From Corallococcus macrosporus DSM 14697 (GTDB lineage Bacteria; Myxococcota; Myxococcia; Myxococcales; Myxococcaceae): a stretch of DNA of 64,000 nt. The DNA lies in contig NZ_CP022203.1 of the NCBI RefSeq assembly GCF_002305895.1, positions 7,908,001-7,972,000 of the forward strand, read 5' to 3'. Of this stretch, positions 489 to 36,232 are shown one piece after another; position 1 is the stretch's first letter; each line of letters opens with the position of its first letter. The position numbers and the translations under genes are program-made. The notes beneath the pieces were generated by a model. It was not told the DNA's origin, did no database searches, and was given only the letters and a program-made list of their open reading frames with translations.

Positions 489-1922
489 ATGGCCGAGAAG
501 CTCACGCCCCGCGAGAAGGGCTTTTCCGAGTGGTACGTCGACCTGGTCCAGAAGGCGAAGCTCGCCGACTACTCGGACGTGAAGGGCTGCATGGTCATCC
601 GGCCCAATGGCTATGCGCTGTGGGAGAACATGCAGCGCGTCCTGGACACGAAGTTCAAGGACCTGGGCCACAGGAACGCGTACTTCCCGCTGCTCATCCC
701 GGAGAGCTACCTGAAGAAGGAAGCTGAGCACGTGGAGGGCTTCAACCCGCAGCTCGCCGTCGTCACCCACGCGGGCGGCTCCAAGCTGGAGGAGCCCTAC
801 GTCATCCGGCCCACCAGTGAGACCATCATCAACCGCAGCTTCTCCAAGTGGATCCAGAGCTACCGGGACCTCCCGCTGCTCCTGAACCAGTGGGCCAACG
901 TGATGCGCTGGGAGATGCGCACGCGCCTGTTCCTGCGCACCACCGAGTTCCTCTGGCAGGAAGGCCACACCTGCCACGAGACCGAGGAGGACGCGGAGAA
1001 GGAGACCCGGCAGATGCTGGAGGTCTACCGGTCCTTCGCCGAGGACTACATGGCGATGCCCGTGCTGACCGGCCAGAAGTCGGAGTCCGAGCGCTTCGCC
1101 GGCGCGCTGCGCACCTACAGCATCGAAGCGATGATGCAGGACAAGAAGGCGCTGCAGGCCGGCACCAGCCACAACCTGGGCCAGAACTTCGCCAAGGCCT
1201 TCGACACCCAGTTCCAGGGCCGCGACGGCAAGCAGCACTACGTGTGGCAGACGTCCTGGGGCGTGTCCACGCGCCTCATCGGCGGCCTCATCATGACCCA
1301 CTCGGATGACGCCGGCCTCATCGTCCCGCCGAAGCTGGCGGCCACGCACGTGGTCATCATCCCCATCTTCGGCAAGGCCACCGACGAAGAGAAGACGCAG
1401 GTGCTGGAGAAGACGAACGCGCTGGCCGCGGACCTGCGCAAGGCGGGCCTGGGCGTGGTGCTGGACGACGACGTGAACAAGAGCCCGGGCTTCAAGTACA
1501 ACGAGCACGAGCTCATCGGCACGTGTCTGCGCATCGAGCTGGGGCCCAAGGACCTGGCGAAGAACTCCTGCGTCATGGTCCGCCGCGACGTGCGCCAGAA
1601 GGAGTTCGTGTCCCTGGACGAGGCCGTGTCCAAGGCCCAGGCCATGCTGGACGCCATGCAGAAGGACCTGTTCACCAAGGCCAAGGCCTTCCGCGACTCG
1701 CACACCTTCGAGGTCAACTCCTACGAGGAGCTGAAGGAGAAGGCGGACCAGGGCTTCCTGCTGGCGCACTGGAACCTGGACCCCAAGGTGGAGGCGCGCA
1801 TCAAGGAGGAGACGGGCCTGACCACGCGCTGCCGTCCCTTCGACCTGAAGCAGGAGCCGGGCAAGTGCGTCGTCACCGGCGAGCCCTCGCCGGGCCGCAT
1901 CGTGTTCTCCAAGGCGTACTGA
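489..1922 (+). CDS. proS: Proline--tRNA ligase, archaeal/eukaryotic type
   Basis: This cytoplasmic class II aminoacyl-tRNA synthetase charges tRNA-Pro with proline. The 477-residue length and the absence of the bacterial editing insertion mark it as the short archaeal/eukaryotic-type ProRS found in some bacteria. Visible signatures are the start [16 protein letters not shown], the class II motif 2 region with [11 protein letters not shown] and [20 protein letters not shown], the [16 protein letters not shown] stretch (motif 3), and an anticodon-binding domain ending in the family's typical terminal Tyr (FSKAY). ATG 489 is preferred over the upstream TTG at 471, because the protein then starts as usual and an AAGGG lies 11 nt upstream. 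A strong hairpin follows the stop. Confidence 0.96.
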
Positions 1923-23448: not shown

Positions 23449-23476
23449 TAAGGGCTTGATCAGAAATTACTTATCC
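23449..23476. repeat. Left terminal inverted repeat of the IS
   Basis: It begins TAAGGGCTTGATCAG and aligns with the reverse complement of 24720-24747 at about 20 of 28 positions. Confidence 0.65.
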
Positions 23477-24678
23477 ATCCGGGGCTTGAGGACGTAGTTC
23501 CAGTCACCATGGAAGGTCGCGCGGACGAGGTGGAGTTCGTGCATGGCCTCCGGAGAGACGCTGACTCCTGTGCGGTAGCGCCGTCGGTCCAACCGTGCTT
23601 TCACCTTCAAGCCCTTGGTGTTGGTCGTGGTGCCGATGAGGTTCACCACCGTCTCGTAGTCCTCCAGGGGGCGGCCTCTCCAATTCAGGCTGATGTGGCT
23701 GAAGAGGCGATGCTCCACCTTGTTCCACTTGCTCGTACCGGGCGGGAAATGACAGACGCTGATGCAAAGCCCCGTCGCGTCCGCCAGCCGCTGCAGTTCG
23801 GCCTTCCAGACCCGGCTTCGCGCGCTGTTGCTGCCGCCCGAGTCCGCCGTCACCAGGAGTTCCTTCGCCTCGGGGTAGCGCGCATGGCCCATTTTGCGCC
23901 ACCACGCGCCGAGGCTGTTGACGGCGAAGACGGGCGTGTCGTGGTCCACCCCCACCGACACCCAGGCGCTGTTGTCCCCGATGTCGTACACACCGTAGGG
24001 AATCGCCTTGCCCACCGCCGTGCCTGGGAAGTCATGCGTCAGGCTCAGCACCGGCGCCCCCGCCGGCTGCCATTCACGGCCTCCATTCTTGAACGCCCCC
24101 ACCAACTCCTTCTTCTTCGTGTCCACCGAAACGGCGGGCTGTCCCCGAGCCTGGAACTCCTGCACCTGAGCGTTGATGTGCTCGAACTGGGCGTTGCGGT
24201 CCGGGTGCGACTCTCCCTCCAACGACTTGGAGATTGCCTGCAAGCTGTAGCCCTGGCTCTTGAGCAACTCGCCCACCTTCTGGGGGCTCACTTTGTAGCC
24301 GTGCTTCTCCAACTCCGCAGCCAGCATCCTCGTGCTCTTGCACGTCCAGCGCAGCGGCGACTCCGGGTCGCCCCGAGTCACCGGGTCCACCAGCGACTCC
24401 AGGGTTTCCGTCAACCCCGGCTGGGCCACCTCCACTGGCGGGCGCCCAGCGCCCTTGCGCCGCACCCGCACCAGTTCTCCTTCAGGCCTCTTCCCGCTCA
24501 CCTCGTCGCGCCCCGCGCGCACCGTCATGCGCGCTAGGCCCGTCGCCCGGGCGACCGCTGTGACGCCGCCTCGTCCCAACGCGAGCGTCTCGGCGCCTGC
24601 CCAGCGGCGCGTCACCCGCTCATCCATGACGTCCCGGCGTGCCTGGTAGCGCTCCGCCACGGCCTTTTCCGCGTCCAT
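23467..24678 (-). CDS. ISAzo13-family DDE transposase
   Basis: A 403-residue transposase. The N-terminus holds a helix-turn-helix-like segment (VTAVARATGLARMTVRAG). The catalytic domain is of the ISAzo13/Rhodopirellula-type DDE fold, with VSVDTKKKELVG (first Asp), LLVTADSGGSNSARSRVW (second Asp) and KWNKVEHRLFSHISLNW (Glu). PPGTSKWNKVEHRL is characteristic of this family. ATG 24678 starts inside the IS, whereas a longer frame begins outside the right repeat. No frameshift or missing catalytic residue is seen, so it may be active. Confidence 0.9.
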   Translation of the reverse strand: MDAEKAVAERYQARRDVMDERVTRRWAGAETLALGRGGVTAVARATGLARMTVRAGRDEVSGKRPEGELVRVRRKGAGRPPVEVAQPGLTETLESLVDPVTRGDPESPLRWTCKSTRMLAAELEKHGYKVSPQKVGELLKSQGYSLQAISKSLEGESHPDRNAQFEHINAQVQEFQARGQPAVSVDTKKKELVGAFKNGGREWQPAGAPVLSLTHDFPGTAVGKAIPYGVYDIGDNSAWVSVGVDHDTPVFAVNSLGAWWRKMGHARYPEAKELLVTADSGGSNSARSRVWKAELQRLADATGLCISVCHFPPGTSKWNKVEHRLFSHISLNWRGRPLEDYETVVNLIGTTTNTKGLKVKARLDRRRYRTGVSVSPEAMHELHLVRATFHGDWNYVLKPRMDK

Positions 24679-24719
24679 ACCCGGCCAACATGCTCGGTTG
24701 CTCGACCATTCCTCTATTG

Positions 24720-24747
24720 GGCTAACTAATATCCGGACAGGCCCTAA
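24720..24747. repeat. Right terminal inverted repeat of the IS
   Basis: Read inward on the minus strand it begins TTAGGGCCTGTCCGGATATT, matching the left end with scattered mismatches. Confidence 0.65.
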
Positions 24748-24812
24748 CATGCACGGGAGAGGGGGCGGGCACCCGGAGGCAGGTCCCCATCTCCCTCCCC
24801 CTGCAAGGAAGT

Positions 24813-25142
24813 TTACGTCACATGACCTCCGAGCACATCCCCCTGCACGAGCCCCCCCGTCCCGTCCCCTGATAAGACCAACTCGGCGGTCATCCCAGCC
24901 TCAAGCTCCTGAAAGCAGCGGCCGTAAGCTCGTATCTGCTCGACACGAATCGAGACTGGCCGGTCCCCCGAACGAATGGACGGAGCATAGCCTTCGGGTG
25001 TTCGCACGGGCGTCAGCTTGAAAGCGACGGAGAAAATGTCGCCAACGCGAATGGCTCCCCGGTGAATTCGCCCGGCGGCACAGACACTACCAGCGTGGGG
25101 AATAACTATCTCAACGCCAAACTCAAAGTACCTGCTCGTCAT
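24813..25142 (-). CDS. Putative immunity protein resembling EF-Tu domain II
   Basis: A 109-residue protein whose ATG overlaps the stop of the Rhs toxin gene (ATGA), the usual place for the cognate immunity gene. The sequence resembles domain II of EF-Tu-type GTPases: GRIHRGAIRVGDIFSV corresponds to EF-Tu GRVERGTIKVGDEVEI, and VEQIRAYGRCFQELEAGMTA to the later strands before the final VQGDVLGG. There is no G domain. It could block the toxin by mimicking its target or may simply use the same beta-barrel fold, both of which are inference. It lies 65 bp from the right end of the IS and shares the lower G+C content of the Rhs gene. Confidence 0.72.
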   Translation of the reverse strand: MTSRYFEFGVEIVIPHAGSVCAAGRIHRGAIRVGDIFSVAFKLTPVRTPEGYAPSIRSGDRPVSIRVEQIRAYGRCFQELEAGMTAELVLSGDGTGGLVQGDVLGGHVT

Positions 25143-28100
25143 GGACCTTTCACCTTCTTCGTTGCCTCCCGGACGAATGCCCGAACTTGATCCGCCGTAA
25201 GTTGCGGAGCGTTCCTTAGTGCATCACTTAGCGCCGCTTTGTCCGGCACCCGTCCCGGAACTTCCGCTCCTAGTCCGCGCAAGAGAGCCCGTGCCTCCTC
25301 GACTGTGAGCGTGACCCCTGCCCGCCGCGCAAAGTCCAACGGGGCGACATTAACTGCGACCTCCTTTTCAAGTGCCGCCAGATAGTTGCCTGCGGAAATC
25401 TCAATTCCGGCCAAATCGGCAGGAGACGCGACATGCACAACCCCCTTTCCAAAGTTGGAGCTTTCGGTAGCAAAAATGGTAGCGACAGCAGGATCTGTTG
25501 AAGCTGGCGTGATTCCGATGCGCTGCAACGCATCATTACCTGCATACCCTTCCGAAGTTCCACGGAACAGGAACGTTCCTGAGGACTTCCCCAATAGGGG
25601 ACTCGCAGCAACAGGCGCATACCCACCTGCAGGAGCCATCACGCTCCCACCATTGATCGTCTCTGCTGCCCCCTGCTGGAAGCCACTAGCCACTCCAGCA
25701 GCAACGTCATCCGCCGTGCCGACCCCAAGAGTCTTGAAGGGGTTTGAAGACGCTAGGAGGGCCCTTCCGGACTGTGTTGTCGCCACGCGGGCAACCAGCT
25801 TTGTGCCTGCCGCCCCAACCGCCTCCACCGCCTCCTTTATAAGCGGCACCTTCGCAAGAGCCGGTGCAACCTTGCCGGCAATGGGCCCCAGAACTGCTCC
25901 ATAGGCTGCGCCGCTCTTCTGCTGTGAGGCGAACTCCGACCAACTCTCGCGCTCCCCCATGAAAGTCAGGGCATTGAACCCCGCTCCAGCGAGGGCGCCT
26001 GATCCCATCGTCGCGGCCAAACCACCGCTTGCGATGGTGAGGTCAATCGAAGCACCAATCTCCATGCCACCGATGATGTTCTGTCCCCAGAGGGAGAGAT
26101 AGTCAGTCGTATCTCTGATTCGGCCATTGACGAGGTCCTTGCCCATCCCAAGGCCCATCTGGGCTGCGCCCCAGAAGAACCCCCCAACCGCACCGACAGC
26201 CGTCGCCGAGTGCCCATCCTCGTCGTAGTAGGCGAGCGGATTCCCATGCGCATACACATACCGGTGCAAGCTCGGAGCATCGTCCAGTTGGCCACCGTAC
26301 GAGTCCCGTGAGATAAACCGCCCCAAGTCGCCGTCGTAGTAGCGGGCCCTCGCATAAGTCAATCCCGTCTCCACGTCGTACTGGTGCCCCGTGAACCCCA
26401 ACTTGAAGTCACTGACGCCTGGGGCCGAACCACCACGGTAGTTCCCCCACGCATCATACTCTCGTGCAGAGGTAACCTGACCAGTCGCGGACAGAGCATC
26501 TGTCACGCTTCCAAGTGCATCTATTCCCAAGAAACTGAGGGCAGCCGATGCCACGTCGCTTACGGCAAGCGGACCTTCGCCATAGTGATAACGACGCTGC
26601 GTAGGCTGGTGGCTTTGGCTACCATCTGCTTCCTGCAGGACAAAGACGCCATCAAGCACATACCCCACATGCTCTGAGGTCGTCCGCCTTTCCGTCCGCT
26701 GGAGATTGGCATCGTAGTCGTAACGACCAACCTCCACACCGTTGTCATAAACCGCCGTCAGCGTGTTGCGAATATCCCAGGCGAAGACGCGGGTAGAGCC
26801 CTGCGCCGTCTTCCCCACAATATTCCCTGCGAGATCATAGCTCAGCGAAACGTGTTTCGAAATATCCTTGAAATCACGAATATTTCGAAGCCAATCCACG
26901 CGATTAAAAATACCGACAACATCATACGTAACTTCGTGGGCCAGAACCGTATTGTATGAATCGGGACCGAGCCCCGGGACAGCAAGACTCGGCGCACGCC
27001 GCTCACCTGTTCTATTCCCCACAGCATCCCACCGATAGAGCGAAGCCTGTCCATCTGGGGATTTAACGCCGGTGAGACGGTTCAGAACATCATATCCATA
27101 CTCGGTAAACTCCGGGCTCCCAAGCTCCTGAGTCGAAGGGCTCGTGCGCACCGCGGTCTGAACCAGGCGGTTCCCATTATCATCATACACATACGCATGA
27201 CGACTGACCATACCTCCGATACTCTGGCACGAATCATTCACGCCTCCTCTGCCGACAACAATCTGCGAGAGGCGCCCTGCTGCGTCGTAGCAACGGCCTT
27301 CAAATATTCCATTGGGCCATGTAACCCCCTTCAGGAGCGAATCGGGCCAGTATCGATACTCCACGACGCCTTCAGGTAACGTCGCTTGCGTAAGCCGTCC
27401 CAAAGCATCGTACATGTACGTAGTCGCGACACCGTCCGAGTCTTCGACTCGCGTACGGCTCCCCAATGCATCGTACCTGTATGAGACTTGCTTCCCGTCA
27501 TACTCACGCAAACGCGTCTTCAGCCGGTCGAGCGCGTCGAACGTAGAGGTAACAACCTCCAGGCGGACACCATTGGCGGTCTGCTTTGACTGTGACTCGC
27601 CGGTCAGATTCCCATTTGGATCATAAGTAAGGACCTCAGAATCAACAGAAGGGAATTCACGCGGGGTCGCATGTTGCGAGTACGTGCGGCTTGCCAACCG
27701 GTCAAGGAGACCATGGGAGAACTCGACTCGTTGCCCCTTCGGATCTACACGGGAGGCTTCGTTCCGGTTGCCATCGTACGCATGGCGCCAGGTCAAAGTC
27801 CCCGTGTTACTGGTGGGCGTCGCACCACTCTCGAATAGCGGGACACTCGACCGCTGCGCCGAAGTCAGCCGTGAGTGAGCATCGAGATGCTGGTGCTCAA
27901 CTGAACGCAAGTTTCGGGCGTCGTACTCATACGTCGTGAGATTTCCGTTCGCATCCTGCTTCGCCACCATATTACGGGCGGCATCGTAGACGTACGTGTA
28001 GAGCCCATTCGCGGCATCCGTAACGGATACGAGTTTGCCTTCCTCCTCGTACGCGTATCTCGTTACGTGCGTCCCCCCACAGGCATTCGCCTCCAACTGG

Positions 28101-35414: not shown

Positions 35415-35482
35415 AAATGCGCCCCATGCGTTATTAGGCGCGACCCATTTTGCGACCCCGCTCCGTATCCCATTTTGAAGGG

Positions 35483-36232
35483 ATGACGGACGGCCGGGCA
35501 TTGGGCTCGAGCCGGCTCGCGATGAGGGACGGAGCTACCGTGCTGCCTGGAAACGACCGGTCCGTCTTGGAGGCTTTCCGCCGGGGGGAGACGTCCGTCC
35601 TCACGCAGGTGTACCGGACCTATTCGCCCGAGGTGCTCCGCTACCTCTCGCGAAAGTTCGCGGTGGGCGCGGAGGGGGGGACGCGCACCGTCGCGTTGTC
35701 CGCGCTGGACCTGGACGCCGCGCATCAAGAGACCTTCGTCCGGGCCTTCCGGCCCAACATGCGGCAGGCCTATGACGGGGTTCGCCCCTACCTGGGCTTC
35801 CTCCTCACGGTGGCGCGCTCCACGGCCATCGACCTCATGCGCGCGTCGGGACGCGTGTCCCGCGAGGCCGTCCCCATGGACGACGCGCCCGAGCTGACGC
35901 ACCTGCCCACCGAGGCCAGGACGCCCGAGGAAGAAGCCCTCAGCGCCGAGGTGCGCGACCTGGTCCGCGCCTTCCTCGACACACTCACGGACGAAGGCCG
36001 CGCCCTGGCGCAGCTCCGCTTCGTCGAAGGGCTCTCGCAGGAATCCGCCGCCCTGCAGCTCCAGCTCACCCGAGGCGAGGTCCGGGTGCGCGAGCGGCGG
36101 CTGCGGACGCAGTTCACGGAGCATCTGAAGGAATCGGGCTGGCTGGACGCATCGGCCGAGCCCGGGCGGATGGAGCTGGGAGTCCTCCTGGCCTCGCTCG
36201 CCTTGTGCGCAATCGGGAGCATGCCCTCATGA
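35483..36232 (+). CDS. RNA polymerase sigma factor, ECF-like
   Basis: A sigma-70 family factor of about 249 residues. Region 2 covers about 40-110 (HQETFVRAFRPNMRQAYDG, then YLGFLLTVARSTAIDLMRA) and region 4 about 165-220 (LAQLRFVEGLSQESAALQLQ, then VRVRERRLRTQF). An alternative GTG near 35540, with GGAG 5 nt upstream, would shorten the protein to about 230 residues, and the start is uncertain. The stop overlaps the ATG of the next gene (ATGA), a zinc-binding anti-sigma factor, so the pair forms a regulatory module. It probably drives its own operon, as is usual for ECF pairs. Confidence 0.88.
   Translation: MTDGRALGSSRLAMRDGATVLPGNDRSVLEAFRRGETSVLTQVYRTYSPEVLRYLSRKFAVGAEGGTRTVALSALDLDAAHQETFVRAFRPNMRQAYDGVRPYLGFLLTVARSTAIDLMRASGRVSREAVPMDDAPELTHLPTEARTPEEEALSAEVRDLVRAFLDTLTDEGRALAQLRFVEGLSQESAALQLQLTRGEVRVRERRLRTQFTEHLKESGWLDASAEPGRMELGVLLASLALCAIGSMPS

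Follow-up and report, generated by a model that had tools for sequence, protein, structure and literature searches.

The locus described here lies in a 64,000-nucleotide stretch (the window) of the genome of Corallococcus macrosporus DSM 14697, a single contig of 8.97 Mb. The nearest relatives that carry the same gene have genomes of 9.8–11.2 Mb. The locus comprises a gene for a very large Rhs polymorphic toxin and a small gene whose start codon overlaps its stop codon (Table 1). The Rhs protein matches RHS_repeat (Pfam, E 2.4e-72) and DUF6531, and a match to Rhs_assc_core (E 6.4e-19) falls within its last 500 residues. Its N terminus is hydrophobic and signal-like, and no PAAR domain was recognized in the Pfam domain search. 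The GC content of the toxin tip is no different from that of the Rhs core.

The first-pass annotation of this DNA had noted that the Rhs stop codon overlaps a 109-residue open reading frame by the sequence ATGA, which is confirmed by our reading of both frames. An identical 4-bp overlap is present at loci L010 and L011. A transposase gene lies directly downstream from the small gene, which suggests that this end of the Rhs locus is mobile or recombining. A gene for an ECF-type sigma factor is divergent to the Rhs gene.

Table 1. Features of the Rhs locus (positions are those of the window)
Feature	Position	Strand	Basis
ISAzo13 family transposase	23467–24750	minus	E 5e-170
Probable immunity gene, 109 aa, stand-alone translation-factor domain II-like beta-barrel	24813–25142	minus	AlphaFold2, Foldseek, VIA, profile match
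Overlap of Rhs stop and immunity start codons (ATGA, 4 bp)	25139–25142	minus	ORFs read
Rhs/YD-repeat polymorphic toxin, 3149 aa	25139–34588	minus	ORF; Pfam and Rhs_assc_core matches
Toxin tip, Rhs residues 3004–3149 (146 residues)	25142–25579	minus	AlphaFold2 and VIA
Glu3074-Lys-Glu3076, putative E-x-E motif	25361–25369	minus	Each Glu in 27/28 relatives
Ser3030-Thr3031-Asp3032, putative central S-T-x motif	25493–25501	minus	Ser in 26/28, Asp in 28/28 relatives
Arg3009 (FRGT), putative first-motif Arg of R-S-E triad	25562–25564	minus	27/28 relatives
ECF-type sigma-70 family factor	35450–36232	plus	E 8e-18

Predicted fold and motifs of the toxin tip

The tip was modeled with AlphaFold2 (pLDDT 88.5, pTM 0.86), and the prediction shows an ADP-ribosyltransferase (ART) core of ∼90 residues together with a conserved C-terminal helical part. 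When aligned with VIA, the model superimposes on Tpt1/KptA with a Z of 9.0 (3.1 Å over 79 residues). The top 16 VIA matches are tRNA 2′-phosphotransferases and rifampin ADP-ribosyltransferases, and toxin ARTs come next. The Z values are 7.0 for Arr, 6.1 for heat-labile enterotoxin IIb, 6.0 for TreX/TreTu, and 5.2 for cholera toxin A1. A Foldseek search, which the first-pass annotation had recommended for the tip, gave a weak result by itself (best E 0.076), although ART-fold enzymes lead in VIA. Because the Foldseek E-values are weak, we base the assignment to the ARTs on the alignments obtained with VIA and on the conserved motifs.

The same annotation had compared three segments of the tip (FLFRGTS, STDPAVATIFA, and EKEVAV) with the R-S-E elements of ARTs and had remarked on the short distance between the first two. 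These segments are indeed present, and their key residues are kept in 26 to 28 of 28 relatives; the two relatives that lack the serine carry threonine instead. The central motif reads STD, not STS, and the R-to-S spacing is short at 21 residues. No family for the tip was found in Pfam, NCBIfam, or PHROGs, and a single-sequence phmmer search against the PDB gave nothing significant. On the basis of its model and its motifs, the tip is predicted to be an ART of the R-S-E type.

The small protein as a domain II barrel

Queried alone, the 109-residue protein matches the Pfam family GTP_EFTU_D2 (PF03144) with 18.4 bits (E 0.0029), which does not reach the curated cut-off of 30.3. This sub-cut-off match recurs in six of seven myxobacterial homologs, and no other family was found for the small protein in Pfam, NCBIfam, or PHROGs. 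Single-sequence phmmer against the PDB again gave nothing significant. A profile built from 15 partner proteins of several phyla matches EF-Tu domain II in the PDB over its full length (residues 215–297, E 7.4e-5), and the remaining top PDB matches are also EF-Tu. When the profile is enlarged to 29 sequences, the E-value for EF-Tu domain II is 3.7e-4. The best profile matches in the host's own genome, after the query itself, are SelB (E 1e-5), which was recognized by reading its sequence, and then the two EF-Tu genes (E 0.39).

The AlphaFold2 model of the small protein is all-beta (pLDDT 93.8). Foldseek, another of the checks proposed earlier, ranks SelB, EF-Tu, and eIF5B first. VIA aligns the model with the domains II of translation factors and with two stand-alone archaeal barrels (PF0907 and Pbp11) at Z values of 12.6–14.5. 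The 15-member profile match and these Z values show that the likeness to EF-Tu domain II is not due to chance. This likeness had been read initially from two strands, GRIHRGAIRVGDIFSV and VEQIRAYGRCFQELEAGMTA, both of which are present, and the lack of a G domain noted at that time holds as well. As modeled, the small protein resembles domain II of EF-Tu/SelB-type translation factors but exists as a separate polypeptide.

Pairing of the two genes and the role of the partner

Relatives of the toxin tip were found in Myxococcota, Actinomycetota, Bacteroidota, Burkholderia, Desulfobacterales, and Planctomycetota, and the pairing of toxin and domain II-like partner extends to at least six bacterial phyla. 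Genomes (one per species) were scanned with the toxin alone as the query, which yielded 15 loci in Bacteroidota, Burkholderia, Nocardia, Streptomyces, Desulfobacterales, and Planctomycetota. A domain II-like gene lies directly downstream at 14 of these 15 loci. The toxin, whole or as a fragment, is present in 19 of 395 Streptomycetaceae genomes, a count that omits four spurious matches. All 12 new intact toxin loci from this family (L070 and L072–L082), which played no part in building the partner profile, have a match to that profile downstream. Partner genes start between 14 bp inside and 41 bp past the toxin stop, and overlap is usual. The distances between toxins and those between partners are strongly correlated (Mantel r 0.84, p 0.0001, 28 pairs), and the correlation holds within Actinomycetota alone (r 0.81).

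At two of the Streptomycetaceae loci (L080 and L081), the toxin open reading frame does not end with the ART domain; a glycine-rich, membrane-like extension comes next, and the immunity gene follows it. At two Bacteroidota loci (L025 and L089), sequence comparison detected no relation of the neighboring gene (1032–1406, plus strand, and 1948–2574, hit strand, respectively) to the domain II-like family. A domain II-like pattern is visible by eye only, and classification of these neighbors as diverged domain II proteins is unsupported, as they score no better than shuffles. They may be a second type of immunity protein or one that has diverged greatly. Weak toxin-profile matches at L084–L087 are spurious; in the two that were read, the match is a short FRGT-like stretch immediately upstream of a D-Ala-D-Ala-ligase-like gene. 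Three further candidates were discarded: L019 and L020, which overlap different, unrelated genes, and L013, which matched by chance. A genome pattern search with the immunity protein alone returned nothing, and the toxin alignment succeeded instead. Viral contigs searched for the immunity protein, and plasmids and phages searched for the toxin, were likewise empty.

Several observations bear on the function of the partner. Intact partner genes persist beside a deleted or broken toxin gene at four loci (L008, L083, L101, and L126), and orphan partner genes are present in other myxobacteria. At locus L006 (1489–2463, minus strand), a single protein joins an N-terminal Imm5 domain (PF14423, E 1.3e-58) to a domain II-like C terminus, and this fusion is, judging by its sequence, a double immunity protein. 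Tight genetic linkage by itself would also permit the small protein to act on the Rhs tip as a chaperone or delivery adaptor instead of serving as an antidote. There is a precedent in the thioredoxin that serves as a chaperone for a Xenorhabdus ART toxin, according to the titles of PDB entries 8s2n and 9gco (Dumont 2024). However, a partner gene that several lineages retain once the toxin is lost, that stands as an orphan in many genomes, and that is fused to Imm5 fits immunity and does not fit delivery, and we consider an adaptor the least probable of the explanations weighed here. The gene overlap, the co-divergence, the retention after toxin decay, and the Imm5 fusion together indicate that the partner is very probably an immunity protein. 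The immunity role assigned in the first-pass annotation has therefore gained strong support.

Proposed mechanism and relation to known systems

We consider it likely that the locus encodes a toxin–immunity pair in which an R-S-E-type ART forms the Rhs tip and a domain II-related barrel binds this tip and thereby masks the active site or the docking surface. This reading is based on two predicted folds, conserved catalytic-type residues, gene pairing, co-divergence, and the retention of immunity genes without toxins; from these we infer the enzyme activity, the target, the binding, and the mode of toxin block. The very large Rhs protein would be exported, and its ART tip would enter a rival cell. 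There, the tip would modify an essential target at the expense of NAD+, and a component of the translation machinery is the most plausible candidate. In the producer, the barrel encoded by the overlapping gene would bind the tip one-to-one and cover its active site or substrate-docking surface, such that the producer would be protected.

Related systems offer precedents for such blocking. RhsF of Chromobacterium violaceum also has an Rhs ART tip, and a crystal structure shows that its immunity protein, RhsFi, occludes the active site and blocks catalysis there (PMC13324451). In contrast to the all-beta barrel and R-S-E-type toxin of the Corallococcus pair, RhsFi is composed of six alpha-helices and RhsF has an R-Y-E triad. 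Tne5 of Pluralibacter gergoviae likewise has an ART-like Rhs tip for which occlusion by its immunity protein, Tni5, has been modeled (PMC13285283), but Tne5 is an NAD(P) glycohydrolase that has a Lys/Glu pocket and lacks the canonical ART site.

The origin of the barrel raises another possibility. If the immunity protein arose by capture of domain II, without the G domain, from an elongation factor of the EF-Tu or SelB kind, then it might serve as a decoy that occupies the docking surface of an ART toxin that docks on or modifies domain II, or a part next to it, of a translational GTPase. The partner is a lone domain II barrel, and SelB and the two EF-Tu genes are its next-best profile matches in its own genome. 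The contact-dependent toxins CdiA-CT EC869 and CdiA-CT NC101 engage domain II of EF-Tu although they are unrelated BECR-fold tRNases, whose CdiI proteins, by the published description, do not resemble domain II (PMC9071432). In addition, the Salmonella Rhs ART toxin TreTu ADP-ribosylates EF-Tu, as cited in PMC10469887 (Jurenas 2022), and PDB 8s2n is a Xenorhabdus complex. The decoy idea gains plausibility from these two precedents. TreTu and its immunity protein TriTu resemble the present pair in that a C-terminal Rhs ART toxin of similar general fold is combined with a small downstream immunity gene. However, the toxin profile does not match the TreTu/TriTu chains in sequence; no ART chain of the PDB, these included, is listed up to an E of 10. 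TriTu is absent among the VIA and Foldseek matches listed for the immunity model and may still have a similar fold.

The residues of the barrel call for caution. The partners share the fold of GTP_EFTU_D2 in EF-Tu and SelB, as of PF0907 and Pbp11, but they are linked to toxins and differ at the tRNA pocket. Four positions of EF-Tu domain II that we take to hold aminoacyl-tRNA are replaced in most partners (Phe218 by Glu, Arg262 by Gly, Asn273 by Thr or Ser, and Thr228 by Val or Ile; E. coli numbering). Arg, Gly, and aromatic positions are held in common with EF-Tu, and most of the common positions (Gly, Ile, and aromatic residues) appear to be structural. Moreover, the partner family diverges fast (27% mean identity), whereas a decoy would be expected to keep the target surface. 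In view of this divergence and the lost functional residues, we regard a decoy as possible yet rather unlikely. Direct blocking of the toxin appears more likely than an EF-Tu decoy because the tRNA-holding residues are not kept.

The strongest VIA matches of the tip, Tpt1/KptA, are tRNA 2′-phosphotransferases, and RNA-modifying Rhs ARTs exist (PMC13324451). The toxin could accordingly modify an RNA target that the barrel would bind or shield, a role for which the stand-alone archaeal members of the domain II barrels might be cited. The loss of the tRNA-pocket residues from the partner speaks against this arrangement, and a partner that guards a conserved RNA would be less expected to diverge so closely in step with the toxin than one that binds it directly. 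We therefore judge competition for RNA very improbable and favor a barrel that would contact the toxin itself.

Immunity folds are diverse, and none was found described as derived from a translation factor. The earlier statement that no such immunity family is known agrees with our search of family libraries and the openly accessible literature, where we found neither an immunity family of the domain II fold nor a description of the toxin family. Both the antidote fold and the toxin family appear to be new. Our verdict is that the toxin–immunity family is real and new; the kind of system (a polymorphic toxin with immunity) is well known, and the fold of the antidote is new. An antidote family seems to have arisen from a fragment of the translation machinery. 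The pairing in at least six phyla yields two new families, one of ART toxins and one of immunity proteins, along with an intrinsic hint as to what the toxin targets. It also raises the question of whether an antidote can evolve from part of the machinery that the toxin attacks.

Domain II-like genes are present in 70 of the 395 Streptomycetaceae genomes, and none of the 19 toxin-bearing genomes lacks one. This co-occurrence gives a Fisher p of 6e-16, which overstates independence because several of those genomes contributed to the partner profile. The genes are far more common than the toxin, and so some of them may serve against other toxins or in other roles. Their wide occurrence as orphans suggests that resistance to toxins of this class has been stockpiled. 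Among the orphans that were read, five Streptomycetaceae proteins of ∼255 aa (L118 and L121–L124; ∼1492–2253, hit strand), whose genes do not lie beside the ART toxin, carry a domain II-like N terminus joined to a different, unassigned C-terminal part.
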